Notes: generated by a model not told the origin, from the letters alone. Counted from the first letter of the stretch, positions 1 to 42,265 are shown. The stretch: DNA of 51,938 bases from a virus (IMGVR_UViG_3300028706_000260:1-51938); one strand, 5' to 3'. Translations and numbers: made by a program.

Positions 1-573
1 ACAGGGGCATCAACAGGCGATACGCTGCAGATTGTGGCTTATGGTGTGCTTGTGAGTGCTGGTGGGGGCGGGGGTGCGTGGGAGGAAATAGAGAATATTG
101 CAATATCCAGTGGAACAGCATCAATAGAGATGGGCTTAACGGGGTATACCGTATATAAATTGATTTACAATATGAACGGTCTTGGGGGGTATACTAACAT
201 CCATCTAACAGGCTCCGAAGACAACGGCTCTACATATATTTCATCATATTTTGAGCATGAACGGACATACCGCCCCAGCACTACGAATGTAATAACTTCG
301 GCGTCGTCCCCGTCATATTTAACCATAGCGAAAACAGGGGCGGGTTCAACGTCATTGGGTGGAGAAATTAACCTTACGACTTTAAGTGAAGGTACTGCGC
401 TTAGAGGGGAAAGTTCATCTGCAAATGCGTCTCTAAATTACGAAAATCGACCTACATTGTTTTTCTCAACAATACCTTTGGCATCATCGTCGGTGAATAA
501 AATAAAGATATCACCGAACAGTGGAACCATTGGTGGCGGCTTTATAACACTCTACGGCATCAAAAATTCATAG
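1..573 (+). CDS. Tail fibre protein, C-terminal part (5' end outside window)
   Basis: The reading frame is open from the first base of the window to the stop at 571-573, so this is the C-terminal end of a longer gene. A GTG at 34 is only an internal codon. The residues encoded just before it (SGDTLQIVAYG) are the repeat-type sequence seen at the end of N-terminal fibre domains in many phages. A glycine patch (SAGGGGGAW) then acts as a hinge before a roughly 165-residue beta-rich domain with features such as 'SEDNGSTYISSYF' and 'GGFITLYGIK', typical of receptor-binding tips. It lies 9 bp upstream of a second fibre gene. The receptor is unknown, and the exact domain family needs structure prediction. 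Confidence 0.75.
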   Translation, partial: TGASTGDTLQIVAYGVLVSAGGGGGAWEEIENIAISSGTASIEMGLTGYTVYKLIYNMNGLGGYTNIHLTGSEDNGSTYISSYFEHERTYRPSTTNVITSASSPSYLTIAKTGAGSTSLGGEINLTTLSEGTALRGESSSANASLNYENRPTLFFSTIPLASSSVNKIKISPNSGTIGGGFITLYGIKNS

Positions 574-582
574 GAGAACAAC

Positions 583-1890
583 ATGAGCACAGCAAGAAAT
601 TTAGCAGCACTCTTAGACTCGTCAGGTGATGTTGTAGCAGGGGCTTTGGACAACGCTGGAGGCGGTGGTGTAGGTGAGTTTAAAGGTGATTCAATTGCCA
701 TTTCGTCGGACGATACAGCGCTTACTTCGCAAACGGCAACAACGGCAGCAAATATTGCCATAGGCGATAGAGCCTTTGAATATGCCGTTAATATTATAGA
801 TAGCGTGGCTATCGGTGAAAACGCCGCAAAGAAGGTGACTACTGGACAATATTCAGTAGCTTTAGGTTCTAATGCTGCCAGTAACACAACTACTTTAAAT
901 TCTACCGTAGCTATAGGCTCTTACGCTGCAAGAAGTTACTCGAACAGTACGGGCAATAGCGTTTATATCGGCTTAGAAAGTGGCTACAACGGCGGTGGTT
1001 CAAATAACACGGCGGTAGGTGCTAACACCCTACATAGTAGCAGCCACACTAATAAAAATACCGCAATTGGAGATTATGCGGGTAATGCGATTTCAGGCGA
1101 AGAGAACACAGTCATTGGCAGACGAGCGGGTATGACGGGCGGTGGCCTTAATGTGTGCGTTGGAGCGTCCACTGGCGAAAAGATGTATGGGTCAACCAAG
1201 CACACGTATGTTGGTAGTCTTGCTGGAAATTATGTAAATAGTGGCACACAAAATACTGCTTTAGGCTCTTACGCTCTATGGGGGATTAGTTCTGTATCGG
1301 GTGCTATCACACAGAACACTGCGATTGGTGCTGATGCACTTAAATATATGCAGGATGGCACAGGTGCTACAAGTATAACTAACTCGGCGGGTCTTGGTTA
1401 TAACAGCCGCGTATCTGGCAGCAACCAAGTTCAGCTAGGTAACTCGTCTACAACGACATACGCATACGGTTCTATCCAAAACCGATCAGATGAACGGGAT
1501 AAAGCTGACATAGCCGACACTTCATTAGGTCTTGATTTTATATCAAAGCTAAGGCCAGTTGAGTACCGTTGGGATTATAGAGAGGACTATTTCACCGATT
1601 CAGAAATAACGACAGAAAATACTGATGGCGAGCAAAGACAGGAAACCGTTTTAAGCCCCACTGTTAAAGATGGCTCACAAAAGCGTAATCGCTTACATCA
1701 AGGATTAATAGCTCAAGAAGTAAAAGCGGTCATGGACGATCTTGGTGTTGAGTTTGGTGGATACCAAGACCACTCATTAAACGGCGGCACTGATGTTAAA
1801 TCCATAGGCTATCAAGAGTTAATCGCGCCGATGATAAAAGCGATTCAAGAACTATCCGAAAAAATCAAAGTATTAGAAGAGGCCCAATAA
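583..1890 (+). CDS. Tail fibre/spike protein with C-terminal S74 intramolecular chaperone
   Basis: 435 aa, preceded by AGGAGAACAAC. The N-terminus resembles the neighbouring fibre and contains a Gly-rich hinge (NAGGGGVGEF). Residues about 60-290 are repeats of the form 'n-t-A-I-G-x-x-A-g/a', such as VAIGENAA, VALGSNAA, NTAVGANTL and NTAIGDYAG, as in trimeric beta-helical heads (YadA-like/fibre shafts). The C-terminus is a peptidase S74 chaperone: S302-D303 in 'RSDERDKAD' is the predicted self-cleavage site, followed by 'LRPVEYRWDY', 'GLIAQEVKAVMDDLG' and a C-terminal coiled coil (PMIKAIQELSEKIKVLEE). S74 domains drive trimerisation and are then cut off. Host-range determinant by inference. 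Confidence 0.9.
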   Translation: MSTARNLAALLDSSGDVVAGALDNAGGGGVGEFKGDSIAISSDDTALTSQTATTAANIAIGDRAFEYAVNIIDSVAIGENAAKKVTTGQYSVALGSNAASNTTTLNSTVAIGSYAARSYSNSTGNSVYIGLESGYNGGGSNNTAVGANTLHSSSHTNKNTAIGDYAGNAISGEENTVIGRRAGMTGGGLNVCVGASTGEKMYGSTKHTYVGSLAGNYVNSGTQNTALGSYALWGISSVSGAITQNTAIGADALKYMQDGTGATSITNSAGLGYNSRVSGSNQVQLGNSSTTTYAYGSIQNRSDERDKADIADTSLGLDFISKLRPVEYRWDYREDYFTDSEITTENTDGEQRQETVLSPTVKDGSQKRNRLHQGLIAQEVKAVMDDLGVEFGGYQDHSLNGGTDVKSIGYQELIAPMIKAIQELSEKIKVLEEAQ

Positions 1891-1891
1891 C

Positions 1892-2137
1892 ATGAGCACA
1901 AACGTATTTAAACTAGTAAATGGTGAGCGCATCGAGCTTACCACAGCAGAAAACAACCAACGTCTAGCAGACGGTGCAGCAGCACAAGCCGAGCAAGATG
2001 CTAGAGCATGGCTTGACGGTCGTCTATCTGAATATCCAGCACTAGCCGAGCAGTTAGATAATATCTACCACAATGGCCTAGACGCTTGGAAAGCTGACAT
2101 TAAAGTCATCAAAGATAAATACCCTAAGCCTGGTTAA
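1892..2137 (+). CDS. Small tail-associated protein (fibre-linked, YPKP C-terminus)
   Basis: 81 aa, starting one base after the fibre stop, so it is translationally coupled. The C-terminal half (YPALAEQLDNIYHNG, DAWKADIKVIKDKYPKP) is a short helical domain repeatedly found beside or fused to tail-fibre genes in marine myo- and siphoviruses. Its role is not established; fibre assembly or a minor virion component is plausible. The N-terminal 'VFKLVNGERIELT' is also a common opening for such proteins. Its base composition matches the fibre genes rather than the replication genes. Confidence 0.7.
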   Translation: MSTNVFKLVNGERIELTTAENNQRLADGAAAQAEQDARAWLDGRLSEYPALAEQLDNIYHNGLDAWKADIKVIKDKYPKPG

Positions 2138-2168
2138 ATACAAGTTACCAAGCTTTAATTGATACGAG

Positions 2169-2176
2169 TATAAATA
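2169..2176 (+). promoter_or_regulatory. Late promoter TATAAATA (sulfotransferase)
   Basis: Exact T4 late-promoter octamer in an AT-rich intergenic gap, 29 bp upstream of the sulfotransferase ATG. A late sigma (gp55) is encoded in this window. Confidence 0.75.
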
Positions 2177-2205
2177 TATATGATTAATTAAACAGGCATT
2201 ATATA

Positions 2206-3015
2206 ATGAAAGAAATATTTTATCAAGCATCACTCCCTAGAGCTGGGTCTACGTTATTACAAAATATCTTAGGACAGCATCCGGATTTTTACGTTACACC
2301 TACATCAGGTGTACTAGAGTTGGTGTTCGGTGCGAGAGCTAATTTCGATACCTCCCCGGAGTTTAAAGCTCAAGATTCTGCAGAGATGGAAGCTGGCTTT
2401 AAAGCTTTTTGTGGGGCAGGTGTTAAAGGATTCTTTAATGCTATTACTGATAAATCTTATGTTGTTGATAAGAGCCGAGGTTGGGGAGTCTATTATGACT
2501 TCATTAATTTCTATCAGGAAAATCCTAAAGTGATTTGTATGGTACGAGACCTACGAGATGTGTTCAGTTCAATGGAAAAACAACATCGTAAGTCACAAAA
2601 GACTTCTACCGGTATCATCAATGACGGTGCCATGGAGGGTACTACTACAGAAAAACGTGTAGGTATTTGGGCTCGCTCTCAACCAGTTGGATTAGCCCTC
2701 GATCGTTTGTATGAGGTGATCTTACAGAAGAAGCCTATATTGTTTGTGCGATATGAAGATCTCACATCTAATCCACAAGAAGAAATGAATAGGGTCTATG
2801 CATTTCTCAATGTGCCTACACATAATCATAACTTTGAAGATGTAGCACAAATCACAAAGGAGGATGATAGTGTGTATGGAGCTTTTGGTGACCATACAAT
2901 AAGGAATAAAGTAAGTGCTCTGCCATCTGATTATGAAGAGATATTGGGTAAAGAAACTTCAGATAAGATCAAAGGATCATATCCATGGTTTTATGAATCC
3001 TTTGGATACAACTAG
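2206..3015 (+). CDS. Sulfotransferase family protein
   Basis: 269 aa. The N-terminal 5'-phosphosulfate-binding loop of PAPS-dependent sulfotransferases is visible as 'LPRAGSTLLQNIL' (residues 10-22). A '(V)RDLRDVFSSM' block near residue 108 corresponds to the 3'-phosphate-binding element, and 'FVRYEDLTSNPQEEM' near residue 180 is the usual downstream family motif. Such enzymes transfer sulfate from PAPS to a hydroxyl or amine of a carbohydrate, protein or small molecule. The substrate cannot be deduced. It lies between tail-fibre genes and the PrkA operon behind its own late promoter, so modification of virion or cell-surface components late in infection is possible (inference). Confidence 0.85.
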   Translation: MKEIFYQASLPRAGSTLLQNILGQHPDFYVTPTSGVLELVFGARANFDTSPEFKAQDSAEMEAGFKAFCGAGVKGFFNAITDKSYVVDKSRGWGVYYDFINFYQENPKVICMVRDLRDVFSSMEKQHRKSQKTSTGIINDGAMEGTTTEKRVGIWARSQPVGLALDRLYEVILQKKPILFVRYEDLTSNPQEEMNRVYAFLNVPTHNHNFEDVAQITKEDDSVYGAFGDHTIRNKVSALPSDYEEILGKETSDKIKGSYPWFYESFGYN

Positions 3016-3033
3016 TAGTAAGTATGCGGCAGA

Positions 3034-3041
3034 TATAAATA
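3034..3041 (+). promoter_or_regulatory. Late promoter TATAAATA
   Basis: Exact late octamer in the 200-bp gap after the sulfotransferase gene. Its last A is the first A of an AGGAG (3041-3045), so a transcript starting a few bases downstream would lack this Shine-Dalgarno, whereas read-through transcripts would keep it. Confidence 0.7.
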
Positions 3042-3054
3042 GGAGAAACACAAA

Positions 3055-3225
3055 ATAATTACCACCGAGCTATACCCCATTCATACAGCGCCTTCGACAG
3101 CGCCACTGGGTATGGTTCATGTAGTCGAGCCAAAGTCTATACGCGATCATGACTATATACCTGTACAGCCACCAAAAGCTCCATATGAAACCCTAAGTTA
3201 CTCAAAGAGGTTATGGATATGTTAG
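3055..3225 (+). CDS. Candidate short ORF with ATA/ATT start (uncertain)
   Basis: An uninterrupted frame of about 56 codons runs from an in-frame TAG at 3040 to a TAG at 3223. It has no ATG/GTG/TTG near its 5' end; the codons after the AGGAG at 3041 are ATA (3055) and ATT (3058). The predicted peptide is protein-like and Pro-rich (ELYPIHTAPSTAPLGM, DYIPVQPPKAPYET) and ends by overlapping the next gene's ATG at 3219, the compact packing used by real phage genes. An internal ATG at 3112 would give 37 aa. No function is recognised. It could instead be a decayed gene or a chance open frame. Confidence 0.35.
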   Translation: MITTELYPIHTAPSTAPLGMVHVVEPKSIRDHDYIPVQPPKAPYETLSYSKRLWIC

Positions 3226-3653
3226 TTGAACTAGCAGCTGCCAACGCAGCATTTTCAGTGATTAAGAAGACGCTGTTGAACGGCAAGTCTATGTTAGATG
3301 CTGGTGATGCAGTTTATAAGTACTTCAAAGCTGAGAATGATATAGCTAAAGAAGTCGCGGCAAAGGGTAAAAACTCTGCATTAGAAGCTTGGCAAGCTCA
3401 GCAGCAATTACGTAGGCAGGAAGGAGAATTAAAAGAATTACTTAATAGCCAGCAATTGATGGGTTATCACGATTTTATACAATTTCGTGCCGAGTACGCC
3501 AGAGAGCAGAAAGAAGCTGCTAAGCAACTCGCTAAGAAAAAATATATTCGCCAACAAGAGATAGAAGATTCCATGGTGCTGGGTATTAAGGTCATGAGCG
3601 GACTATTGGTCACTGTAGGCATAATCTCAGGTGTTGCTATATATCTAAGATAA
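3219..3653 (+). CDS. Small conserved phage protein with C-terminal TM anchor
   Basis: About 144 aa. The ATG at 3219 is preferred over 3213 because the AGAGG at 3206-3210 is 8 nt from it. The N-terminus (ELAAANAAFSVIKK) is a short amphipathic or hydrophobic helix. The middle is a long charged helix rich in Lys/Glu/Gln, probably coiled coil (EAWQAQQQLRRQEGELKELL, AREQKEAAKQLAKKK). The C-terminus is one membrane span (VMSGLLVTVGIISGVAIYL) followed by Arg. I recall similar proteins beside tail-fibre genes in marine T4-like phages, but no function is established. A role at the envelope or as a minor virion protein is inference. Confidence 0.7.
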   Translation: MLVELAAANAAFSVIKKTLLNGKSMLDAGDAVYKYFKAENDIAKEVAAKGKNSALEAWQAQQQLRRQEGELKELLNSQQLMGYHDFIQFRAEYAREQKEAAKQLAKKKYIRQQEIEDSMVLGIKVMSGLLVTVGIISGVAIYLR

Positions 3654-3656
3654 AGG

Positions 3657-3685
3657 TGTACATATAACCTAAAGTGTGGTATAAT
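3657..3685 (+). promoter_or_regulatory. Sigma70-like promoter upstream of prkA operon
   Basis: TGTACA (3657-3662), 17-bp spacer, perfect TATAAT (3680-3685), in the gap before the PrkA gene. An AT-rich stretch follows. The -35 has two mismatches to consensus. Confidence 0.5.
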
Positions 3686-3735
3686 TAAGATGTATATATA
3701 ATTATACTATTAGTAATCCACCAAGGTACAATATT

Positions 3736-5682
3736 ATGTCTATATTTGACGATTTTACAACTGACAGGAAGTCGAGCGAAACGGAATTTATGTCGTTTGA
3801 GGATTATCTCAAACTTTGTAAAAAGGACCCGTTAACTTATGCCACCGCGGCAGAACGAATGATTGCGGCAATCGGCGAACCTGAAATGGTCGACACATCT
3901 ACGGATCGACGACTATCACGAATCTTTCTCAACCGAACACTTAAAGTATATCCAGCATTTAAAGACTTCTATGGCATGGAAGACGCCGTGGAACGTATTG
4001 TGGGATTCTTTAAACATGCAGCTCAGGGTCTAGAAGAACGTAAGCAGATTCTATATCTATTGGGTCCTGTGGGTGGTGGTAAGTCATCTATCGCAGAGAC
4101 TCTCAAGTCTCTTATGGAAGCGCATCCAATCTATACACTGGTTGCCGAAGGTGATCATAAAGACAATATCTCTCCGGTATTTGAATCTCCTCTTGGTCTA
4201 TTTGACCCCACTAAGTTCGGTGCAAAATTAGAGAAAGATTATGGTATCAACAGACGATACGTGTCTGGGTTAATGTCACCATGGGCACTTAAACGTCTTG
4301 AAGAGTTCGGTGGAGATATCTCAAAGTTTAAGATTGCTAAGATTTGGCCATCTAAACTAACTCAGACCAGTATTACTAAAACTGAACCTGGTGACGAAAA
4401 CAACCAAGACATTTCCAGCTTAGTGGGTAAGACTGATATCCGCATGCTAGAGTACTTCTCTCAGAATGATGCAGACTCTTATGCATACTCAGGTGCTTTA
4501 TGTCGAGGCAACCAAGGTATCATGGAATTTGTAGAGATGTTTAAAGCACCTATTAAGGTTCTCCATCCATTACTTACTGCTACCCAAGAAGGTAACTACA
4601 TTGGTACAGAGGGAATCTCTGCCATACCATTCAATGGTGTAGTTCTTGCCCACTCTAACGAATCAGAGTGGCAGACATTCAAATCTAACAAGAATAATGA
4701 AGCGTTCATTGACCGTATTTGTGTCATTAAGGTTCCATACTGCCTACGGGTAGATGATGAAGTTAAAATCTATGATAAGATGTTAGCTGATTCAGGCCTT
4801 GATATTGATACTTGTGCACCAGAAACGCTTAATATGCTAGCACGATTTACAGTACTTACACGTTTACATGAGCATGAAAACTCTAATAAGATGTCTAAGC
4901 TACGTGTATACAATGGTGACAATGTTAAGGATACAGACCCTAAAGCTAAGTCTATCCAAGAGTATCGCGATATGGCTGGTGTCGATGAAGGCATGGATGG
5001 CATATCAACACGATTTGCATTCAAGATCCTTTCTAAGACATTCAACTTTGATGCTGAAGAAGTATCCGCAGATCCTATTCATTTAATGTATGTATTAGAA
5101 GATTCAATTCGAAGAGAGCAATACTCTGAAGATGTTGAAAGCACCTTAATGGAATACATTAAAGAATACCTTGCGCCTAAGTACGCTGAGTTCATCGGCA
5201 ATGAAATCCAAAAGGCTTACTTGGAATCATACTCTGATTATGGTCAGAACTTATTCGATCGTTATGTTGAGTATGCAGATTCATGGATTCAAGATATTGA
5301 CTTCAAAGATCCTGATACTGGTAACCTATTTAACCGTAAGATTCTAAATGAAGAGCTTGAGAAGATTGAGAAGCCAGCTGGCATTTCTAATCCTAAGGAC
5401 TTCCGTAATGAAGTGGTTAACTTTGTTATCCGAGCTCGAGCTAAGAATAAAGGTGATAACCCTAAGTGGAACTCATACGAGAAGCTTCGTGAGATCATTG
5501 AGAAGAAGATGTTTGCTTCTACCGAAGAACTACTTCCTATCATTTCATTCAGTGCAAAGGGTTCTGAAGATGATCAGAAGAAGCATAATGATTTTGTACA
5601 AAGGCTCGTGAAGAAGGGATATTCTAATCGCCAAGTTCGTAGATTAGTTGAATGGTATATGCGTGTACAGAAGAGCTCATAA
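3736..5682 (+). CDS. prkA: PrkA-type AAA+ serine protein kinase (YeaG family)
   Basis: 648 aa, full length for the PrkA/YeaG family. The N-terminal 'SFEDYLKLCKKDP' motif is typical. An AAA+ module follows, with Walker A GPVGGGKSS at residues 110-118, 'GNQGIMEFVEMFKAP' and 'GVVLAHSNESEW' (sensor region). The C-terminal half is the PrkA kinase-like domain ending in 'VRRLVEWYMRVQKSS'. In enterobacteria YeaG works with YeaH and YcgB in nitrogen-starvation and stationary-phase responses. Bacillus PrkA has also been described as an ATP-dependent protease. The next two genes here are exactly those partners. The start ATG follows AAGGTAC. All motifs look intact, so an active enzyme is expected. Function in a phage is unknown; reprogramming host stress physiology is inference. 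Confidence 0.93.
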   Translation: MSIFDDFTTDRKSSETEFMSFEDYLKLCKKDPLTYATAAERMIAAIGEPEMVDTSTDRRLSRIFLNRTLKVYPAFKDFYGMEDAVERIVGFFKHAAQGLEERKQILYLLGPVGGGKSSIAETLKSLMEAHPIYTLVAEGDHKDNISPVFESPLGLFDPTKFGAKLEKDYGINRRYVSGLMSPWALKRLEEFGGDISKFKIAKIWPSKLTQTSITKTEPGDENNQDISSLVGKTDIRMLEYFSQNDADSYAYSGALCRGNQGIMEFVEMFKAPIKVLHPLLTATQEGNYIGTEGISAIPFNGVVLAHSNESEWQTFKSNKNNEAFIDRICVIKVPYCLRVDDEVKIYDKMLADSGLDIDTCAPETLNMLARFTVLTRLHEHENSNKMSKLRVYNGDNVKDTDPKAKSIQEYRDMAGVDEGMDGISTRFAFKILSKTFNFDAEEVSADPIHLMYVLEDSIRREQYSEDVESTLMEYIKEYLAPKYAEFIGNEIQKAYLESYSDYGQNLFDRYVEYADSWIQDIDFKDPDTGNLFNRKILNEELEKIEKPAGISNPKDFRNEVVNFVIRARAKNKGDNPKWNSYEKLREIIEKKMFASTEELLPIISFSAKGSEDDQKKHNDFVQRLVKKGYSNRQVRRLVEWYMRVQKSS

Positions 5683-5697
5683 AAGGAGGTACTCGTT

Positions 5698-7002
5698 ATG
5701 GGCAAGTATATCATTGACCGACGGAAGAATCCGAAGGGTAAGAATCTAAGTAATCGCCAACGATTTATTAGACGAGCTAAGAGGTCTATAGAGAGGCAAA
5801 TTAAAGAGAATATCATAGACAGGTCAATCTCTGATCAGTCTGATGAAGATGTTCGAATCCCTATTGATGGTGTGCAAGAGCCAAAGTTTGGCCATGACCC
5901 ATCTTCAGGGGATTATGATTTCGTTCTTCCTGGAAATAAAGACTTCGTTCCTGGTGATCTAATACCAAAACCAGAAGGTGGTGCAGGAGGTCCGGGTGGT
6001 TCCGGATCTTCAGACTCAGGTGAAGGTGAGGATGATTTTGCATTCTCATTGACGCGAGAAGAATATCTATCTATAGTATTCGACGGCCTTGAATTACCAA
6101 ACCTAGATGATCAGAAAGGTCAACCTGATCTAACCGTTTTTGAACACGCACGTGCAGGCTTTACCACAGTGGGTAATCCAGCAAACATGAACCTCGAGCA
6201 GTCGATGATAAATTCCTTGGGTCGTCGTATTGCACTGAAGTTCCCAAAAAATAAAAAGATAAGGGAACTTGAGGCAGAACTTGTGGAGTTGGATGCTTTT
6301 TTTAGCACATTGCCGGTGGGTAAGAAGGAAAGAACTTCCCAGTGGTGTCGTTATCAGGAAATTGAGTCTGAGATCAGATCTCTCAAAATCAAAGCACGTG
6401 CTGTTTCTTTTATTGACCCTATTGACCTTAGATATAATAACTTCTCTAAGACCCCCAAACCTATAACTGCTGCCGTTATGGTATGCGTCATGGATGTATC
6501 TGCATCTATGGGTACTAGGGAGAAAGAACTAGCTAAGAGGTTCTATCTATTATTGTACCTGTTCCTTGAACGTAAGTATGAGAGGATTGATATAGTCTTT
6601 ATTAGACATCATACCAGAGCAAAAGAATGTACTGAGCATGAGTTCTTCTATGATAAGGAGACTGGTGGTACTATGGCATCGACTGGTCTTAACTTAGCTG
6701 ATGATATTATATCAGAAAGGTATCCAGAGAATGAGTGGAATATATACATGACCCAAGCATCTGATGGTGATAACTTTGCCTCCGATATGCATAATTATAG
6801 GTTATATTTAAGTAAACTCATTAGAAGATGTAACCTATATTCATATATTGAAATAGATAATGAGTTTCATACATCATCTGACCTGTGGGGTACTATGGTA
6901 AGTGCATCAAGAGATAATAATAATCTCATAGCCAAGAAGATTATGAGTGCTAGGGATATAGTACCTATATTCAGGGAAATCTTTTCTACGGAGAATATAT
7001 AA
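5698..7002 (+). CDS. yeaH: YeaH/YhbH family (DUF444) protein with VWA domain
   Basis: 434 aa, 15 bp after prkA, with a strong AAGGAGGT Shine-Dalgarno. Layout: basic N-terminus (YIIDRRKNPKGKNLSNRQRF) typical of YeaH, a Gly/Ser linker (about residues 98-115) followed by an acidic stretch, then a von Willebrand A-like domain. The metal-site motif 'MDVSASMG' (about residues 263-270) has the full DxSxS, and 'GGTMASTGL' supplies the later Thr/Ser positions. YeaH proteins are partners of PrkA/YeaG, presumably as metal-dependent adaptors. The gene overlaps the SpoVR gene as TAATG, showing translational coupling. Confidence 0.9.
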   Translation: MGKYIIDRRKNPKGKNLSNRQRFIRRAKRSIERQIKENIIDRSISDQSDEDVRIPIDGVQEPKFGHDPSSGDYDFVLPGNKDFVPGDLIPKPEGGAGGPGGSGSSDSGEGEDDFAFSLTREEYLSIVFDGLELPNLDDQKGQPDLTVFEHARAGFTTVGNPANMNLEQSMINSLGRRIALKFPKNKKIRELEAELVELDAFFSTLPVGKKERTSQWCRYQEIESEIRSLKIKARAVSFIDPIDLRYNNFSKTPKPITAAVMVCVMDVSASMGTREKELAKRFYLLLYLFLERKYERIDIVFIRHHTRAKECTEHEFFYDKETGGTMASTGLNLADDIISERYPENEWNIYMTQASDGDNFASDMHNYRLYLSKLIRRCNLYSYIEIDNEFHTSSDLWGTMVSASRDNNNLIAKKIMSARDIVPIFREIFSTENI

Positions 7003-8549
7003 TGACTCTACTTTACGAATCAAATGAATGGGATTTTGAAACATTAGACCGTGTATACGAAGCCTGTGCTAAGATAGCAAAGGATGAATTGAAGCTTGAT
7101 ACCTATACCAATCAGTTAGAGATTATATCCTCTGATCAGATGTTAGATGCTTATGCTACTGTGGGTCTTCCCATATATTATAAACATTGGTCATTCGGTA
7201 AACAATTTGTAAGGGAATCTCATGATTATAAGAAGGGTAAATCTGGATTAGCTTATGAGATTGTAATCAATTCAGATCCTTGCATTAATTATCTTATGGA
7301 AGAAAACTCCATAACAACACAGACTACTGTTATTGCCCATGCAGCATTCGGTCATAATCACTTCTTTAAGAATAACTATCTGTTTAAGGAGTGGACTCAG
7401 GCAGACCATATCGTAGACTACCTAATCTTTGCTAGGGATTATATCACTAAATGTGAAGAGCAATATGGTATAGAGTCTGTAGAGACTGTACTTGATGCTG
7501 CACACGCTCTGTCTCAGAATGGTGTATTCAAATATAAACATAATAAATTGAATGCGAAGGATGAGAAAGAAAAACAGAAACAACGTGAAGAGTATATCGA
7601 ATCTCACTTCAATGACCTGTGGCGAACAGTCCCAGTAATGAAATCTGATGAAGATCGAACTCTTGAGGATATGCTTACCGAAGAAGAACTTGAGGTGATG
7701 GAAAACTTCGGGTATAATATAACTGATCCTGAAGAGAATCTATTATATTTTATCGAGAAGAACTCACCTATATTGAAACCTTGGCAACGAGAGATTGTGC
7801 GTATAGTCCGTAAGGTTGCACAATATTTCTATCCTCAGTACCAGACTAAAGTGATGAATGAAGGCTGGGCAACGTTCTCACATTACTATATCATGAATCG
7901 GTTATATGAGACTAATCAGATCACTGAAGGTTCATATTTAGAATTTATCCATACTCACACATCAGTGTTAAGAATGGATGACTTTGACTCTCAGTACTTT
8001 AATGGATGGAATCCCTACACATTAGGATTTGCTATGTTCATGGATATTAAGAGGATTTGTGAAGATCCTACTGAAGAAGATCGTGAGTGGTTCCCAGATT
8101 GGGCAGGTGGTGATTGGCTAGAAGTATGCCATGATGCTGTTGATAATTATAGGGATGAATCGTTTATTAGGCAGTTCTTGAGCCCGAAGTTAATGCGCGA
8201 CTTTAAGATGTTCACCCTCGATAACCAAGAAAGAGCTAAGGACTATGAAGTGTCTGCTATCCATGATACTAGAGGATATAAACATATTCGTGATACGTTA
8301 GCATCTCAATATGAAATCATTAACTTCATTCCTGACATAACAGTCGTGGGTGCAAACTTCAAGACAGATAGGGTGTTAACATTATTACATCAGATCCATT
8401 CTGGTAAGTTATTGCATACTAACACTGCATCAGTTCTAGAGCATATGAAGCATTTATGGGGTTATCAGATAGTTATGGATTGTGTTGATGAAGATGGTGA
8501 ATATGAGGATTCTCATGAATCTTCTAAGATGCCAATATATGAGATCTAG
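7002..8549 (+). CDS. SpoVR/YcgB family protein
   Basis: 515 aa, close to the usual length of YcgB (about 510). Family features include the N-terminal 'NEWDFETLDRVYEAC' block, 'QLEIISSDQMLDAYATVGLPIYYKHWSFGK', a His-rich 'HAAFGHNHFFKNN', and 'NEGWATFSHYYIMNRLYE', which are the most conserved stretches I know for SpoVR. Its biochemical activity is unknown: SpoVR acts in Bacillus spore-cortex formation, and YcgB belongs to the RpoS/starvation regulon with YeaG/YeaH. Third gene of a coupled operon (start overlaps the yeaH stop). Runs up to the late promoter of the neck genes. Confidence 0.92.
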   Translation: MTLLYESNEWDFETLDRVYEACAKIAKDELKLDTYTNQLEIISSDQMLDAYATVGLPIYYKHWSFGKQFVRESHDYKKGKSGLAYEIVINSDPCINYLMEENSITTQTTVIAHAAFGHNHFFKNNYLFKEWTQADHIVDYLIFARDYITKCEEQYGIESVETVLDAAHALSQNGVFKYKHNKLNAKDEKEKQKQREEYIESHFNDLWRTVPVMKSDEDRTLEDMLTEEELEVMENFGYNITDPEENLLYFIEKNSPILKPWQREIVRIVRKVAQYFYPQYQTKVMNEGWATFSHYYIMNRLYETNQITEGSYLEFIHTHTSVLRMDDFDSQYFNGWNPYTLGFAMFMDIKRICEDPTEEDREWFPDWAGGDWLEVCHDAVDNYRDESFIRQFLSPKLMRDFKMFTLDNQERAKDYEVSAIHDTRGYKHIRDTLASQYEIINFIPDITVVGANFKTDRVLTLLHQIHSGKLLHTNTASVLEHMKHLWGYQIVMDCVDEDGEYEDSHESSKMPIYEI

Positions 8550-8554
8550 CTTTA

Positions 8555-8562
8555 TATAAATA
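8555..8562 (+). promoter_or_regulatory. Late promoter TATAAATA (neck/terminase operon)
   Basis: Exact late octamer 31 bp upstream of the gp13 ATG, at the boundary between the PrkA-SpoVR operon and the structural block. Confidence 0.8.
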
Positions 8563-8593
8563 TACATAAGAATAACAAATATGAGAGATATTT

Positions 8594-9340
8594 ATGGCTG
8601 CTCCAACAACTCGTGCTACACTTATTGATTATTGTCTAAGAAGACTGGGTGCTCCCGTAATCGAAATAAACGTTGATGACGATCAGGTTTCTGATCGCAT
8701 TGACGAGGCCCTTCAATACTACCAGGAATATCATTCAGATGCTATAGAACATACTTACATAAAGTATCAGTTAACTGCAGCCGATATTACTAATGAGTAT
8801 GTCACTGTGGGCAATGATATCACAGCTGTAGTTAAAATACTACCAATCGGTATGAACTCATCAGCATGGCATTCAGATAACTGGCAGTATATGCTAGGTA
8901 CTATGAATAGCCTAATGAGGAATTCAACTGGTTCTATTGCACAGTATGAGATGTCTCAACAGAATCTCTCGCTGTTGAGACATCGTGTTGGGTCTGCTGA
9001 AGGCATTAGGTATAATAGACATACAAATAAGCTATCCATTGATGTTCAATGGGGTACTGAGTTAAAGGAAAATGACTACATAGTAATGGAATGTTATCGC
9101 ATTGTTGATGCATCTTCTTATTCAGATGTATATAACGATATGTTCCTAAAGCAATATTCAACAGCTCTTATCAAACAACAATGGGGTGCTAATCTCATCA
9201 AGTTTGAGGGTATGCAACTTCCTGGTGGGGTTACAATGAATGGTCGTCAGTTATATGACGATGCTACAGAAGAGATTAGATTAATTCGAGAGATGATGCA
9301 AGTGAATTATGAAGAACCTGTTGATTTTATGGTAGGATAG
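8594..9340 (+). CDS. gp13: Neck protein gp13-like
   Basis: 248 aa, first of an ordered run 13-14-15-16-17. The sequence 'TRATLIDYCLRRLGAPVIEINVDDDQVSDRIDEALQYYQEYH' is the characteristic gp13 N-terminus in T4-like phages of marine type. 'MFLKQYSTALIKQQWGANLIKFEGMQLPGGV' is also typical. In T4, gp13 and gp14 complete the head-tail connector after packaging. Length is somewhat below T4 gp13 (about 309 aa), as in environmental relatives. 4 bp before gp14. Confidence 0.88.
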   Translation: MAAPTTRATLIDYCLRRLGAPVIEINVDDDQVSDRIDEALQYYQEYHSDAIEHTYIKYQLTAADITNEYVTVGNDITAVVKILPIGMNSSAWHSDNWQYMLGTMNSLMRNSTGSIAQYEMSQQNLSLLRHRVGSAEGIRYNRHTNKLSIDVQWGTELKENDYIVMECYRIVDASSYSDVYNDMFLKQYSTALIKQQWGANLIKFEGMQLPGGVTMNGRQLYDDATEEIRLIREMMQVNYEEPVDFMVG

Positions 9341-11336: not shown

Positions 11337-12900
11337 CACATACTTAGGTAATCCATTAATTAAAAGAGATGGTATTCAGCAACAATGGACAGAGAGTGAT
11401 ATAAAGGAATATGCCAAATGCATGCAAAGTCCTATATATTTTGCTAAAACCTACCTTAAAGTAATTAACCTTGATAATGGTCTGGTCCCCTTCCAGCTAT
11501 ACGACTACCAAGAAAATATGTTTACCCACTTCAATAGCAATAGGTTCTCTATTGTGCTTGCATGTAGACAATCAGGTAAGTCGATATCATCAGTTGCTTA
11601 TATATTATGGTATGCTGTATTTCACCCAGAGCAGACTATAGCCATCCTTGCGAACAAAGGCGCTACTGCAAGGGAAATGCTATCGCGTATCACATTGATG
11701 TTAGAGAATTTACCATTCTTCCTACAGCCAGGTTGTAAGGCATTAAATAAAGGATCTGTTGAGTTTTCAAACAATTCCCGTATAATAGCCTCTGCCACAT
11801 CAGGTTCTTCTATTCGTGGTATGTCTATTAATCTTCTATTCTTAGATGAGTTTGCATTCGTTGAAAATGATGCAGAGTTCTATACATCGACATATCCAGT
11901 AATATCATCAGGTAAGAATACTAAGGTTATCATAACATCCACACGCAATGGTATAGCTAATGTATTCCATAAACTGTGGGAAGGTGCAGTGCAAGGTACT
12001 AATAATTTCACACCCTTCAGGGTTGACTGGTGGGATGTGCCTGGAAGAGACGAGGCATGGAAAGCAGAGACTATAGCAAACACTTCACAAATACAATTCG
12101 ATCAAGAGTTTGGAAACAAGGTAATAACTTCCGGATCTACACTCATAGATGCAGATAAGCTACTTGCACTACAGTCCATTAACCCCATATACACACAAAA
12201 TAATGTATCTGTGTATGCTAAACCTAAGGAAAATCATAGATATTTAATGTTTGTCGATGTTGCTAAGGGTAGGGGCCAAGATTATTCTACATTTAATATC
12301 ATTGATATAACACAAGAACCATTCACCCAAGTTGCGGTTTATCGTGATAATATGATATCACCTCTATTATTCCCAGACATTATATTCAAGTATGCAAAGA
12401 CTTTTAATGAAGCATATACTATTATAGAGAACAATGATGCTGGAGCTGTGGTGTGTAATGGACTATATTATGATTTAGAGTATGAGAACGTGCATGTAGA
12501 ATCTGCAATCAAGTTAGGTGGCGTTGGTGTGACGATGACAAAGAAGGTCAAGCGCATAGGTTGCTCGAATATAAAAGATCTTATAGAACAAGGCAAATTG
12601 CATATTAATGATGCTGAAACTATTATAGAACTATCCGCATTCTCGGCGAGAGGTCAGTCATATGAAGCTCTGCCAGGAATGCATGATGATTTAGTTATGA
12701 ATTTAGTACTGTTTGGGTGGTATACATCAACTCCATTCTTTCTCGAGATGACTGATATTGATATTAAAAATATGTTATATAGGGAAAGAGTTGCTGAGCT
12801 TGAAAGTGATATGATACCTTTTGGTATCGTATCGGTTGATGAGGATATGGATGTGATAGATACAGAATTTACCGGTGATTTGTGGACCATATCATCATAA
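11320..12900 (+). CDS. gp17: Terminase large subunit gp17-like (packaging ATPase/nuclease)
   Basis: 526 aa (T4 gp17: 610). ATPase: Walker A-type 'ACRQSGKSIS' at residues 81-90, Walker B 'LLFLDEFAF' at 172-180, and coupling 'TSTRNG' near 206-211. RNase H-fold nuclease: 'MFVDVAKGRGQDYSTF' with Asp313, 'ENNDAGAVV', and the C-terminal 'HDDLVMNLVLF'. It translocates DNA into the prohead and cuts the concatemer. Shine-Dalgarno AGAGGT lies 8 nt before the ATG. All catalytic motifs look intact. Confidence 0.96.
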   Translation: MNQRADTYLGNPLIKRDGIQQQWTESDIKEYAKCMQSPIYFAKTYLKVINLDNGLVPFQLYDYQENMFTHFNSNRFSIVLACRQSGKSISSVAYILWYAVFHPEQTIAILANKGATAREMLSRITLMLENLPFFLQPGCKALNKGSVEFSNNSRIIASATSGSSIRGMSINLLFLDEFAFVENDAEFYTSTYPVISSGKNTKVIITSTRNGIANVFHKLWEGAVQGTNNFTPFRVDWWDVPGRDEAWKAETIANTSQIQFDQEFGNKVITSGSTLIDADKLLALQSINPIYTQNNVSVYAKPKENHRYLMFVDVAKGRGQDYSTFNIIDITQEPFTQVAVYRDNMISPLLFPDIIFKYAKTFNEAYTIIENNDAGAVVCNGLYYDLEYENVHVESAIKLGGVGVTMTKKVKRIGCSNIKDLIEQGKLHINDAETIIELSAFSARGQSYEALPGMHDDLVMNLVLFGWYTSTPFFLEMTDIDIKNMLYRERVAELESDMIPFGIVSVDEDMDVIDTEFTGDLWTISS

Positions 12901-14654: not shown

Positions 14655-15185
14655 ATGAGTATTTTAGGCGTAGATGACTTTAAGTCAAAACTAACAGGTG
14701 GTGGCGCAAGAGCTAACCTGTTCAAAGCAACATTAAACTTCCCTAATGGCATTAGTGTAGATAACGAAAAAGCATCTTTTATGTGTAAAGCGGCTTCGTT
14801 ACCATCTTCGGTGATTGCACCGATCATGGTACCATTTCGTGGTCGGCAGTTACAGATTGCTGGTGATAGAACGTTCGAACCTTGGACTGTTACTATTATC
14901 AATGATACTGATATGTCGGTAAGGAATGCTTTTGAAAAATGGATGAACGATATCAACAACCATACTACTGGAGGTGGTGCTACTGACCCATCAACATATA
15001 TGGCTGATATGGGTATTGATCAGCTTGATAAGGCTGGTAATTCATTGAAGCATTATGATATCGTGGGTGTTTGGCCAACTAACGTTTCTGCAATTGAGCT
15101 GTCATATGACACCACAGACACAATTGAAGAGTTTACAGTTGAGCTTCAGGTGACTTATTGGGAGTCATCAGGAATCACTTCATAG
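14655..15185 (+). CDS. gp19: Tail tube protein gp19-like
   Basis: 176 aa (T4: 163). 'GGARANLFKATLNFPNG', 'FMCKAASLPSSVIAPIMVPFRGRQLQIAGDRTFEPWTVTIIND' and 'RNAFEKWMNDINNH' are canonical gp19 motifs. It polymerises into the inner tube through which DNA passes. Shine-Dalgarno AAGGAG precedes the ATG. A hairpin and a late promoter follow the gene. Confidence 0.95.
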   Translation: MSILGVDDFKSKLTGGGARANLFKATLNFPNGISVDNEKASFMCKAASLPSSVIAPIMVPFRGRQLQIAGDRTFEPWTVTIINDTDMSVRNAFEKWMNDINNHTTGGGATDPSTYMADMGIDQLDKAGNSLKHYDIVGVWPTNVSAIELSYDTTDTIEEFTVELQVTYWESSGITS

Positions 15186-15191
15186 TATCAT

Positions 15192-15199
15192 TATAAATA
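15192..15199 (+). promoter_or_regulatory. Late promoter TATAAATA (portal)
   Basis: Exact late octamer 7 bp after the gp19 stop and 64 bp before the portal ATG. A strong hairpin lies in the resulting leader. Confidence 0.75.
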
Positions 15200-15209
15200 A
15201 TGTATTATA

Positions 15210-15228
15210 GGGGAGGGCAATCCTCCCC
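15210..15228 (+). terminator. GC-rich hairpin in gp19-gp20 gap
   Basis: GGGGAGG (15210-15216) pairs perfectly with CCTCCCC (15222-15228) across a GCAAT loop. There is no following T-run, so it may be an mRNA-stabilising or attenuating hairpin rather than a strong intrinsic terminator. Confidence 0.55.
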
Positions 15229-15263
15229 ATTAACTGATATTGTCGTAGAAATAGGTATAAGTA

Positions 15264-16850
15264 ATGGCTGAAATATTTGGATTCACAATTAATCGCAATA
15301 AGTCGGAAGTCGAGGATGCCAAGAAGAAATCATTCGTGGCTCCTGAGGATGACGAGGGTGCTCATTATATTGCATCGGCTGGCAATCACTATGGCCAGTA
15401 TATTGATATTGATGGTGATAAAGCCAAAGACACTAAAGACCTTATTTTAAAATATAGATCAGCTGCTCAGATTACTGAGTGTGATGCTGCTATAGAAGAT
15501 ATCATTAATGAATCGTTAGTTTCAGATTCATTGAAAGGGCCTGTATCATTGTCATTAGACGAGCTTGAGGTATCTAAGACGATCTCTAATAAGATAAGAG
15601 ATGAATTTGATACTATTATTAAGCTGACTAAGATTAACACTAAAGGTCATGATTTGTTCCGTAAATGGTATGTTGATGGTAGATTATATCATCATATTAT
15701 AGTTGACGAGAAACAATCTGCTAAGGGTATTCTGGAAGTTAGGTATATTGACCCTACCAGAATACGCAAGGTAAAGGAACTAATAAGAGAGAAAGATCCT
15801 AAGTCTCAGAAAGAGATTATAAGGGGTGTTAAAGAATATTATTTGTATCAGACTAATAATATGTTGAATAAGGAGGAGGCACTACAGATCTCCCCAGATG
15901 CAATATCTTACGTAACGTCTGGTATGATGGACCCTGAGAGAAAGCGTGTAATTTCTCATATCCACAAAGCATTAAAGCCAGCAAATCAGCTTAGGCTTCT
16001 AGAAGATTCCGTTGTGATTTACCGGGTATCACGAGCACCCGAACGTCGTATATTTTATATCGATGTTGGTAACTTACCCAAATCAAAGGCTGAATCTTAC
16101 CTTCAAGGTATTATGAACAAGTATCGTAATAAGATGGTATACGATGCATCTACCGGTGACATAAAGGATGCTAAGAATCATGTATCAGCACTTGAAGACT
16201 TTTGGTTACCTCGTAGAGAAGGTGGCCGCGGTACTGAGATTTCTTCATTGCCTGCTGGTCAGAACTTGGGTGAGATTGAAGATATTGTATATTTCCAAAG
16301 GAAATTATATAAATCTTTGAATGTACCTATAGGAAGATTAGAGCAAGAGAATCAATTCTCATTAGGTAGATCTACAGAGATTTCCAGAGATGAAGTTAAG
16401 TTTGCAAAATTCATTGGAAGATTACGACTAAAGTTCTCGGAGCTGTTCCTTGGATTATTAAGAACTCAGCTTCTATTGAAGAAAATTATATCATCAGAAG
16501 ATTGGGAAGAGATGAAGGATGGCATTAAAGTTGCCTTTGAAACTAATGCCCATTTCTCTGAACTTAAAGCTGCAGAAGTATTACGTGAAAGGGTTGATAC
16601 TCTTACTAATATGGAACAACATATAGGTATTTACTACTCTAGGGAATGGGTGCGTAAAAACGTACTGATGCAGACGGAAGAAGATATTGAGGAACTGGAT
16701 AAGCAGATCGAAGATGAGAAGGAGTCTGGTGATATAGATGTCTTGGATGCAGATGGTGATGGTGACTTCGATGTTGATGATATCGCATCTGGAGGTGAGG
16801 AACAGAAGCCTCTGGTTGTGGAGCCCGATGAAGAATCTGCTAAAGATTAA
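15264..16850 (+). CDS. gp20: Portal vertex protein gp20-like
   Basis: 528 aa (T4: 524). Recognised by 'YRSAAQITECDAAIEDIINESLV', 'GRLYHHIIVDE', 'GILEVRYIDPTRIRKVKE', 'SRAPERRIFYIDVGNLPKSKAESYLQGIMNKYRNKMVYDASTG' (conserved in all T4-like portals, shown only as an identifying stretch here in part), 'MLEDFWLPRREGGRGTEI'-like block and 'LGEIEDIVYFQRKLYKSLNVP'. It forms the dodecameric portal that starts prohead assembly and through which DNA is packaged. The acidic tail (DADGDGDFDVDD) is common in relatives. Confidence 0.96.
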   Translation: MAEIFGFTINRNKSEVEDAKKKSFVAPEDDEGAHYIASAGNHYGQYIDIDGDKAKDTKDLILKYRSAAQITECDAAIEDIINESLVSDSLKGPVSLSLDELEVSKTISNKIRDEFDTIIKLTKINTKGHDLFRKWYVDGRLYHHIIVDEKQSAKGILEVRYIDPTRIRKVKELIREKDPKSQKEIIRGVKEYYLYQTNNMLNKEEALQISPDAISYVTSGMMDPERKRVISHIHKALKPANQLRLLEDSVVIYRVSRAPERRIFYIDVGNLPKSKAESYLQGIMNKYRNKMVYDASTGDIKDAKNHVSALEDFWLPRREGGRGTEISSLPAGQNLGEIEDIVYFQRKLYKSLNVPIGRLEQENQFSLGRSTEISRDEVKFAKFIGRLRLKFSELFLGLLRTQLLLKKIISSEDWEEMKDGIKVAFETNAHFSELKAAEVLRERVDTLTNMEQHIGIYYSREWVRKNVLMQTEEDIEELDKQIEDEKESGDIDVLDADGDGDFDVDDIASGGEEQKPLVVEPDEESAKD

Positions 16851-34274: not shown

Positions 34275-35219
34275 ATGTTTGAATTAACTATATTTGAATC
34301 TGCGTTTGACAACAAGACCCATCGACGCATGAGTACATTAGACTGGACTGGCTTCGTTAATATATTACAGCAACTTTCTGAGATGCCTGGATATAAACCC
34401 AAGACCGGTGAGTGGAAGAAAGGATCATCCTTAATTTCACCAGCAGTATATAAGGAAGGTTCTACCAGAAGCAATAAGAGTGTTGTTAAATGGGCCCGCT
34501 GGGCTGCATTAGATGTGGATGACTATGAAGGCACATTCGAAGAAGTTATGGATAAGTATAAAGACTATGTGTATATATGCTACTCCACAGCATCGTCAAC
34601 ACCCGAGCATCCTAAATTCAGGGTCGTCTTTCCGTTAACTGCTGACATACCTCATGATAATATAAAGCATTTCTGGTATGCCATCAATAAACATTTCGGT
34701 GAGATTGGAGATCCCCAGACTAAAGATATGAGCCGTATGTACTATGTACCTGCAGTATATCCTGATGCTCATAACTTCTTTATTAATCATGATACCGGAT
34801 CTGTGATAAACCCAGAAGCTTTGATGGTTAAGTATCCATGGGAAGATAATACTAAATTATCATTCTTTGATAGGTTACCTGAATCAATGCAGAAGTCATT
34901 GATTGCACGGCAGAAAGAGCAGATGACTAATAATCTGATTCGATGGAATAATTACAGGGATTGTCCATTTGTTAATAAGAAGCTCGTTGCTCAGTATGCT
35001 AATATATCTGCGGCTGGGTGGTATCATACCATGTATAAGATAATGGTGTCTATAGCAACTTCTGCGTTGTATCGTAAATATCCAATAACATCCAATGAAA
35101 TTGCTACTCTATGTAGGGAGATTGATAGAGATAACGGAGACTGGTATGGGTCAAGACCTTTTGAAATTGAAGCCGATCGGGCAATTGAATATGCATATAA
35201 AACTATAGGTATAGTATGA
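34275..35219 (+). CDS. Primase-polymerase (AEP)-like replication protein
   Basis: 314 aa (ATG 34275 after AGGTGAG; GTG 34269 possible), adjacent to gene 43. The N-terminal half has 'WARWAALDVDDYEG' (Asp-x-Asp at about residues 80-82), 'YVYICYSTASSTPEHPKFRVVFPLT' and 'SRMYYVPAVYPDAHNFF', the order of motifs in archaeo-eukaryotic-type Prim-Pol domains of phage and plasmid replication proteins. The C-terminal half (WYHTMYKIMVSIATSALYRKYP, EIEADRAIEYAYKTIG) resembles a helical PriCT-type region. It may prime DNA synthesis. No T4 gp61 primase is visible in the window. The final bases overlap the epimerase start. Confidence 0.65.
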   Translation: MFELTIFESAFDNKTHRRMSTLDWTGFVNILQQLSEMPGYKPKTGEWKKGSSLISPAVYKEGSTRSNKSVVKWARWAALDVDDYEGTFEEVMDKYKDYVYICYSTASSTPEHPKFRVVFPLTADIPHDNIKHFWYAINKHFGEIGDPQTKDMSRMYYVPAVYPDAHNFFINHDTGSVINPEALMVKYPWEDNTKLSFFDRLPESMQKSLIARQKEQMTNNLIRWNNYRDCPFVNKKLVAQYANISAAGWYHTMYKIMVSIATSALYRKYPITSNEIATLCREIDRDNGDWYGSRPFEIEADRAIEYAYKTIGIV

Positions 35220-36133
35220 GAATATTAGTAACAGGTGCGGCCGGATTCATTGGGTTCAATCTCTGCATGGAATTATCAAAACATCATGAGGTCTCTGGTA
35301 TAGATTTTTATGAATCAGATCCATTAAAGATCACCAGGACAAATCTACTCATAGGTAAGTGTGATATTCAACAAGTTGATATTATGCACGATGAATTACC
35401 AAACTTACATAATATCGATCTGGTAATACATCTTGCTGCTATTGCAGATGTTATGAGATCCATATCACACCCAACCGATTATTATAACGTGAATGTTATA
35501 GGCACTCAGCGAATTATTGATGCTGTATCTGTTTATAATATTCCTGTAATTTATGCATCGTCATCATCTGTATATTCAGGCAATGAGTGTTCATATGAAT
35601 CGCCATATAAAGAATCTGATATGTTGGGCATGCCCACCAATCCGTATGCGATGTCCAAGTATGTAAACGAAAGCCAATTCAAACAGGCGTCCATACAGAG
35701 TTGGGGTTTGAGATTCTTCACTGTATATGGTGATTGGGGACGCCCAGAGCAGGCGTTATGGAAATTCACAGAAAGTGTTATCAATGATACAGGATTAGTA
35801 TTAAGAGGTGATGGTGAGTATCTTAGAGACTTTACCCATATTGATGACCTGGTTCAGGCCATTGTATGTGTAATCGATAATAAGCCGACAGAAGATATTA
35901 TTAATGTGGGGTCTGGTGTCGCAACATCAACATCTGATATGGTTCGGTATATCTCTGATCATCTAGAAACCAGCACTGATATATCATTGGAGGGGTATAA
36001 TGAATATGAAAGTATCATGACACTATCTGATAACTCTATATTGGAATCGTATGGGTGGCGCGCCCACATTGATATTAATGATGGAATATGTAAATTTATT
36101 GACTGGTATCAGGAGAGTGGGTATGGATCCTAA
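35216..36133 (+). CDS. NAD-dependent nucleotide-sugar epimerase/dehydratase (SDR)
   Basis: 305 aa, complete extended SDR. Rossmann motif 'VTGAAGFIGFNL' (GxxGxxG, residues 7-13), 'VIHLAAIADV', Ser triplet 116-118, catalytic 'YAMSK' (Tyr144, Lys148), 'FFTVYGDWGRPEQALWKF' and 'RDFTHIDDLVQAIV'. Most like UDP-glucose 4-epimerase / UDP-glucuronate epimerase-type enzymes; exact substrate uncertain. ATGA overlap with the gene before and an 11-bp overlap with the dehydrogenase after suggest a coupled sugar-nucleotide unit. Confidence 0.9.
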   Translation: MRILVTGAAGFIGFNLCMELSKHHEVSGIDFYESDPLKITRTNLLIGKCDIQQVDIMHDELPNLHNIDLVIHLAAIADVMRSISHPTDYYNVNVIGTQRIIDAVSVYNIPVIYASSSSVYSGNECSYESPYKESDMLGMPTNPYAMSKYVNESQFKQASIQSWGLRFFTVYGDWGRPEQALWKFTESVINDTGLVLRGDGEYLRDFTHIDDLVQAIVCVIDNKPTEDIINVGSGVATSTSDMVRYISDHLETSTDISLEGYNEYESIMTLSDNSILESYGWRAHIDINDGICKFIDWYQESGYGS

Positions 36134-39896: not shown

Positions 39897-39916
39897 TTAA
39901 ATGAATGGTGGATAAT

Positions 39917-40741: not shown

Positions 40742-40744
40742 ATT

Positions 40745-41782: not shown

Positions 41783-42260
41783 AAAGACATTTTTAAGATA
41801 CTGGGCGTTTGTATCTGTACTCTTATGCGGTGGCATTGCATTGCATTGGAATGATATATTCAATGACATATATGAAGCTGATGTTACTGGTATTAGTAAT
41901 GGAATATACGTTGTATTTGGCCTTGCTATAATTCTTACTGGTTTTGCATCTATGCGTGTGGCTAACGCAAATAATCAGTTTGGGTATGCTAGTAGAACAG
42001 ATAAGTATGTCGACATTTCGTGGTTCCTCTCCGAGGCCATGATGACATTAGGGCTTATTGGTACAGTAGCTGGTATGATATACTTATTCGGCCAGATCTT
42101 CCACGATATCGATCCATCCGACCCCGATGATCTAAAGGCAGCATTGTCCCATATGGCTTCAGGATTATCTACTGCAATGTATACCACCATCGTTGGAATG
42201 GTTGGGGCATTATGTACTAAAGTGCTTCTGATGAATATAGAATTTGATCAGGGGAAGTAA
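41769..42260 (+). CDS. TolQ/ExbB/MotA-like proton-channel subunit
   Basis: 163 aa from the ATG at 41769 (AGGAG upstream). Four predicted spans at about 11-26, 43-63, 91-111 and 131-156. The last two carry the family hallmarks: 'MTLGLIGTVAGMIYLF' (GLIGTVAGM 95-103) and 'GLSTAMYTTIVGMVGAL' with consecutive Thr, equivalent to the 'ALxTTxxGl' pore helix of TolQ/ExbB/MotA. It lacks the long cytoplasmic loop of TolQ. The next gene supplies the expected partner with an Asp in its TM. Homologous pairs use proton flow to do mechanical work across the envelope. Confidence 0.82.
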   Translation: MANTKKTFLRYWAFVSVLLCGGIALHWNDIFNDIYEADVTGISNGIYVVFGLAIILTGFASMRVANANNQFGYASRTDKYVDISWFLSEAMMTLGLIGTVAGMIYLFGQIFHDIDPSDPDDLKAALSHMASGLSTAMYTTIVGMVGALCTKVLLMNIEFDQGK

Positions 42261-42265
42261 TCGCC

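Follow-up and report, generated by a model that had tools for sequence, protein, structure and literature searches.

Why would a phage carry, among its structural genes, a complete copy of a bacterial stress operon? The question is raised by a 51,938-base virus record of IMG/VR (IMGVR_UViG_3300028706_000260; this whole stretch is called the window below), probably a phage genome fragment, in which proteins of the PrkA, YeaH and SpoVR families are encoded side by side. The YeaG/YeaH/SpoVR stress operon is conserved very widely among bacteria, its molecular activity is unsolved, and in nitrogen-starved Escherichia coli YeaG and YeaH jointly act as a metabolic brake (PMC4664914, PMC10954441). The three genes of the window, referred to here as the trio, are the following:

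3736..5682, + strand: PrkA/YeaG-type AAA+ ATPase with PrkA C-terminal domain, 648 aa
5698..7002, + strand: YeaH/DUF444, with a C-terminal von Willebrand A (vWA) domain carrying a metal-ion-dependent adhesion site (MIDAS), 434 aa
7002..8549, + strand: SpoVR/YcgB, predicted gluzincin-like fold, 515 aa

All three are adjacent and on one strand, in the order of the bacterial operon. An original prediction made from this DNA had placed a full-length trio in bacterial order at 3736-8549, and it is borne out by the open reading frames (ORFs) and by full-length Pfam matches: PrkA to AAA_PrkA (PF08298, 2e-174, model positions 1-358 of 358) and to the PrkA C-terminal domain (PF06798, 3e-68, 1-255 of 255), YeaH to DUF444 (PF04285, 3e-147, 1-418 of 418), and SpoVR to PF04293 (1e-159, 1-405 of 407) and SpoVR_C (PF24755, 9e-15, 1-55 of 55). 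With E-values of 1e-147 to 1e-174, chance is excluded for the three families. Translational coupling, which had been claimed outright, is plausible given the one-base overlap of YeaH with SpoVR and the 15 bp between PrkA and YeaH.

The Walker A and MIDAS motifs are intact, as had also been predicted. PrkA keeps the Walker A motif GPVGGGKS at residues 110-117, and its K116, R236 and K430 are the equivalents, mapped through a 644-aa Enterobacter YeaG, of E. coli YeaG K116, R232 and K426, each of which mutagenesis found to be required in vivo, in the AAA+ part and the C-terminal part alike (PMC4664914). A solved homologue of PrkA exists (9xip, E 3e-56). In YeaH, the five MIDAS residues D266, S268, S270, T325 and D356 are invariant in 44/44 sequences, and the C-terminal half is predicted to adopt a vWA fold (Z 14.6-16.8 over ~160-180 residues).

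Where did these genes come from? In the PrkA, YeaH and SpoVR trees alike (support 98, 98 and 97), the window forms one clade with three other contigs, L002, L003 and L004, and this clade is nested inside a wholly viral group that includes jumbo-sized phage contigs; the bacterial sequences in the trees were drawn from the 80 best matches only. Viral PrkA proteins reach 91% identity to that of the window, versus ~70% at most for the bacterial loci returned. Direct capture from an enterobacterium is ruled out by these identities and by the nesting among viral sequences, and separate origins of the three genes are ruled out by the congruence of the trees. Judged by identity and tree position, the trio is a laterally exchanged phage cassette: the phage copies form one clade and the genes move together, and neither separate sources nor inactivated sites were found.

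The three genes also keep together across viral genomes. Counting the non-redundant viral loci in which PrkA is followed by 5 kb or more of sequence, 50 of 51 have all three genes, in one order and on one strand; inserts of more than 300 bp separate trio genes in 11 loci, with the order kept. Within 7 kb of the trio, no gene family besides these three was seen in more than 8 of 53 loci. That exactly these three genes travel together in the phage clade points to the trio as the functional unit. The sole exception among the 51 is the L081/LAU1 group, which falls among gammaproteobacterial sequences in the trees and probably represents host DNA. The record of Enterobacter phage LAU1 (L082, MN688132) opens, at 1-3308, with yeaG and yeaH beside lambda-like tail genes; we set it aside as a phage precedent, these genes being probably the host flank of a prophage. 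About 20 contigs with the trio also have a terminase match, and several are 100-578 kb long; IMG/VR contigs without terminase may include mis-sorted bacterial DNA. L003 and L004 look, from their gene content, like fragments of larger phages: they carry ribonucleotide reductase, clamp loader, DNA ligase or ATP-dependent protease, and elongation factor G genes, and L003 also carries six tRNAs.

The phage of the window, by its gene content, is T4-like and Kyanoviridae-related. The window encodes the T4-like markers TerL, sheath, tube, portal, gp23, gp55, gp45, UvsX and DNA polymerase, and its TATAAATA late promoter sites are in keeping with this assignment. Its nearest named relative is Phage C48C1 (Kyanoviridae; TerL identity 68%), whose gene order matches that of the window for gp13-gp15, TerL, sheath, tube, portal and gp23. 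A T4-type TerL query gave 2,573 matches among 50,697 phage records. The trio lies, as predicted, between fibre and neck genes, with these neighbours:

583-1890: fibre/tail-spike gene, left flank of the trio
2206-3015: gene of the sulfotransferase family, situated between the fibre gene and the trio and provided with a late promoter motif of its own
3213..3653, + strand: 146-aa ORF, function unassigned, adjoining the cassette on the left
8594..9340, + strand: gp13-like head-tail adaptor Ad2 (PHROG 211, 5e-45), right border of the slot, followed by gp14/Hc2 and gp15

Comparison with relatives delimits the trio as a discrete cassette in a variable slot between the fibre genes and gp13. L002 is the sole other T4-like contig found with the trio, at the same position before gp13, and in a survey of 139 gp13 loci with over 1.5 kb of upstream sequence (some contigs being sampled twice) it alone has trio genes. 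Two divergent T4-like lineages thus carry the cassette in this slot. The trio is therefore rare in T4-like phages, and not common to the relatives of this one. DNA homology between the window and L002 spans 3731-8806, from 5 bases before the PrkA ATG into gp13. In L084, whose gp13-to-portal proteins are 75-90% identical to those of the window, DNA homology begins at 8594, exactly the gp13 ATG, and other genes lie upstream. Two further contigs (L086, L087) have a homologue (46%) of the 146-aa border ORF before gp13 and lack the trio; two small unrelated ORFs replace it after the border gene. Phage C48C1, despite its matching gene order, has a slot without the trio.

The three proteins in this slot are strongly conserved. 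Identity between the window and L002 is 91%, 83% and 84% for PrkA, YeaH and SpoVR, versus 47-52% for gp13-gp15 and 71% for TerL. Nonsynonymous divergence (dN) is 0.057 for PrkA, with a synonymous divergence (dS) of ~2.2; it is 0.13 for YeaH and 0.10 for SpoVR, where dS is saturated. The trio thus has dN of 0.06-0.13 versus 0.24-0.49 in TerL and the neck genes, and because synonymous sites are near saturation no dates can be read from its divergence. The trio is under purifying selection, and low dN in all three genes indicates long retention under strong constraint. Its guanine-plus-cytosine (GC) content matches the phage backbone.

When is the cassette expressed? Two distinct promoter-like classes can be recognized in the window, one (TATAAATA) lying mostly before late genes and the other (TGNTATAAT) ~30-50 bp before early/middle genes. 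Around the trio they are placed as follows:

3034..3041, + strand: late promoter motif TATAAATA, upstream of the 146-aa ORF; read-through into the trio is possible
3657..3685, + strand: candidate early/middle promoter TGGTATAAT, TGTACA and TATAAT separated by 17 nt, with TG before TATAAT
8555..8562, + strand: late promoter motif TATAAATA, just past the cassette and belonging to gp13

The candidate promoter TGGTATAAT lies 51 bp upstream of the PrkA ATG, and the same class is found before gp55, gp45 and uvsX. The motif TGNTATAAT is enriched in the window (19 observed versus 7.2 expected; 0/100 shuffles). On the coding strand, 8 of its 9 copies lie 29-51 bp upstream of an ORF, those of gp55, gp45 and uvsX included; the 10 copies on the other strand have no evident role. 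A match as good as that of PrkA in the 82-bp gap has a chance of ~0.004 by shuffling, judged post hoc. The late motif TATAAATA occurs in 11 copies, all on the + strand, 9 of which are intergenic and upstream of ORFs, mostly late ones; its total count is not above chance and it is the placement that is informative. It is found upstream of gp13 also in L002 and in 8 of 11 other relatives checked, and no copy of the trio's own is present between 3654 and 3735. Since the trio has an early/middle promoter-like sequence of its own and no late promoter of its own, it is probably an early or middle gene set located inside the late region. The description of the trio as part of a late region thus holds for its position and probably misleads as to its expression.

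No sequence relative of SpoVR was found in the PDB, and we examined its predicted structure. The alignments behind the structure predictions were made with the phage-collection sequences left out. The AlphaFold model has a predicted local distance difference test (pLDDT) score of 81 and a predicted template modelling (pTM) score of 0.80. In VIA-align its top 15 rows, mostly M1 enzymes, have Z of 9.3-12.6 over 171-200 residues; the matches are mainly M1 aminopeptidases, leukotriene A4 hydrolase, angiotensin-converting enzyme (ACE)-type enzymes and dipeptidyl peptidase III (DPP III), and the top two are lipoproteins of unassigned function (Z 12.6 and 11.4). These alignments are support rather than proof, because Z near 10 can mislead for helical proteins. 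Foldseek with the same model gave no significant PDB relative, and a BFVD search gave one significant match, an unnamed viral protein.

Conservation points to the same kind of site. Of 55 aligned rows, 54-55 keep H113, H118, E287 and H294, and in the third-ligand motif of NEG type E287, G288 and A290 are invariant in 55/55. We take the motif HAAFGH to resemble the HExxGH of M49 enzymes, and NEGxA the third-ligand motif of M1 enzymes. SpoVR thus shares with the M1/M49 gluzincin metallopeptidases, to which its model aligns at Z ~5-11, an HxxxGH and NEGxA pair resembling the M49 and M1 zinc sites. It differs in having alanine at the catalytic glutamate (Ala114, alanine in 52/55 rows), so that the gluzincin signature HExxH/HExxxH with its glutamate is absent, and no activity is known for it. 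On the model and these motifs, SpoVR resembles a gluzincin-type metalloprotein without the canonical catalytic glutamate. In the huge phage LR756504 (L318, 14516-16420), an intein-like in-frame insert interrupts SpoVR directly after the conserved NEG, and in L077 (13251-15491) another follows a conserved DAY. Inteins favour functionally critical sites, and the position of the insert in LR756504 is consistent with an active or binding site at NEG.

What might the trio do for the phage? We lean slightly towards the view that it is a functional AAA+/MIDAS/metalloprotein machine, circulating among phages and made early in infection to restrain or redirect host metabolism, as its gene content and promoter class suggest. 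PrkA, with YeaH as its MIDAS adaptor, would act on SpoVR by remodelling or metal loading. The assembled PrkA-YeaH-SpoVR machine would be produced early and would hold the metabolism of the infected cell, perhaps a nutrient-limited one, in a state that stays productive long enough for replication. Control of host metabolism, as originally predicted, would fit the YeaG/YeaH metabolic brake (PMC10954441). L003 carries a glutamate-dehydrogenase-family gene (11749-12774) directly after SpoVR and a glutamine-synthetase-like gene (2804-3859) upstream of the trio, and L004 has an ORF (14870-15895) equal in length and position to the former. These genes hint at nitrogen stress; one or two contigs make no pattern. 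Use of the trio when infecting starved cells, as also proposed, is conjecture.

MoxR-type AAA+/vWA pairs activate metalloenzymes, and as in those pairs an AAA+ ATPase and a MIDAS protein are here co-encoded beside a candidate metalloprotein. The likeness is one of architecture only: PrkA belongs to a separate Pfam AAA family, AAA_PrkA, and Pfam reports no MoxR-type family for it. Several points weigh against the proposed machine. Activation of SpoVR by PrkA and YeaH is modelled on the MoxR pairs, by analogy. For a lytic phage, a brake on metabolism is a seeming paradox; it could be used to stop waste in the metabolism of the host, or to let starved cells survive up to lysis. No early-type promoter is recognizable upstream of PrkA in L002, which makes the early/middle promoter reading tentative. 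Finally, the activity of PrkA is disputed, the purified Bacillus protein having negligible kinase and protease activity (PMC13001217).

Other roles have to be weighed against metabolic control. The trio could modify the cell wall or time lysis, which we consider unlikely. The name of B. subtilis SpoVR comes from spore cortex formation, and SpoVR is linked to the spore envelope in Firmicutes; a gluzincin-like fold could suit a hydrolase, the trio adjoins late genes, and prkA affects spore integuments (PMC13001217). The missing glutamate of SpoVR speaks against such a role, as do the early/middle promoter class, the E. coli data, which indicate metabolism, and the lack of any envelope or cell-wall domain reported by Pfam in the trio. 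Slightly less likely again is superinfection exclusion or counter-defence, in which quiescence imposed by the trio blocks rival phages or blunts host defence. A metabolic brake could indeed shut out competitors, and the slot shows the hypervariability typical of accessory phage genes; yet none of the three proteins matches a family among the PADLOC anti-phage defence models, and many proteobacteria carry this module as an operon on the chromosome.

Delivery in the virion, with the proteins made late and carried into the next infection, seems improbable to us. It would suit a location between fibre and neck genes, and the late promoter at 3034 could read through into the trio, terminator-like sites being no commoner than in shuffles. 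The trio's own early/middle-type promoter-like sequence argues otherwise, and in L003 and L004 the trio stands beside ribonucleotide reductase, exonuclease and translation-factor genes, not virion genes. That the trio is passenger DNA or an assembly chimera without function is very improbable, even though the contig is metagenomic and the trio was met in only a single further T4-like contig: that contig, L002, is independent evidence for the junction, its synonymous sites being near saturation and its protein conserved, the GC content is like that of the phage backbone, the genes overlap or abut, and low dN in all three largely refutes the idea.

How far was this module known? The bacterial prkA-yeaH-spoVR operon (yeaG-yeaH, with ycgB, in E. 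coli) has the same families, in the same order in proteobacterial genomes, with PrkA up to ~70% identical and the same essential residues. It differs in that the window's proteins fall in a phage clade and the window's cassette lies among phage structural genes and has a promoter of phage type. The idea that the trio is new to phages does not stand: Thermus phages and huge phages have it, and so do dozens of contigs in IMG/VR, many of jumbo size. A PrkA tblastn search against the 50,697 phage records gave 16 matches, namely 11 Thermus records, 4 uncultured huge phages and LAU1. In the Thermus phages phiYS40, TMA, phiLo and MN1, a serine kinase, SpoVR and a vWA-domain protein are clustered, but PrkA is only ~26-28% identical, the order is vWA-SpoVR-PrkA and the lineage is clearly separate. 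The uncultured huge phages LR745206, LR756504 and LR756502 (634-642 kb) have the full trio with PrkA ~60% identical, on a distant branch of the tree. In LR756502 the trio is split (273867-277124 and 519962-521395), with SpoVR ~243 kb from PrkA-YeaH. The Ralstonia jumbo phage RsoM2USA (344 kb) has PrkA annotated as ORF30 and SpoVR as ORF28, the latter filed under replication, recombination and repair (PMC8504454); the ~1.35-kb gap between the two, known here from the annotation, would fit YeaH.

For the Eastern Tropical North Pacific oxygen minimum zone, spoVR is reported to be the commonest viral sporulation-type gene and was read as a sporulation gene (PMC8940887). PrkA, YeaH and DUF444 are absent from the main text of that study, and the module was therefore unrecognised there. 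In the literature searched we found no paper describing PrkA-YeaH-SpoVR as a phage module and none linking SpoVR to a metallopeptidase fold, and literature searches pairing Thermus phage with SpoVR or MoxR with PrkA found nothing. The trio or its parts are thus already known from Thermus phages, RsoM2USA, huge phages and, as spoVR, oxygen-minimum-zone viromes; new here are the T4-like carriers, the cassette borders, the phage-clade origin, the three-gene unity, the promoter class and the reading of SpoVR.

Viruses keep genes that act fast on the host, and the phage versions should therefore make a simple assay possible. If the promoter is indeed an early one and SpoVR a metalloprotein, these readings provide a testable mechanism, and the view of viral spoVR as a sporulation gene needs revision. 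A bolder proposal, possible though rather doubtful, is that phages have in the trio a widespread and so far unrecognised takeover module. Its AAA+/MIDAS pair would activate SpoVR, an unusual metalloprotein of gluzincin-like kind, and phages would deploy it early to set host metabolism. Were this true, the phage forms of the trio would be a handle for finding the biochemical activity of the bacterial operon.

Elsewhere in the window no tRNA genes were found, and nucleotide-sugar epimerase and UDP-glucose dehydrogenase-like genes lie at 35216-36929. Five consecutive ORFs at 39905-43401 resemble an inner-membrane cluster. One of them encodes a peptide transporter of the SbmA/BacA family (PF05992, 1.5e-75), which matches just 3 of the 50,697 phage records; the others encode a 278-aa protein in which a protease-like motif may be present, a protein like MotA/TolQ/ExbB, and two small membrane proteins.

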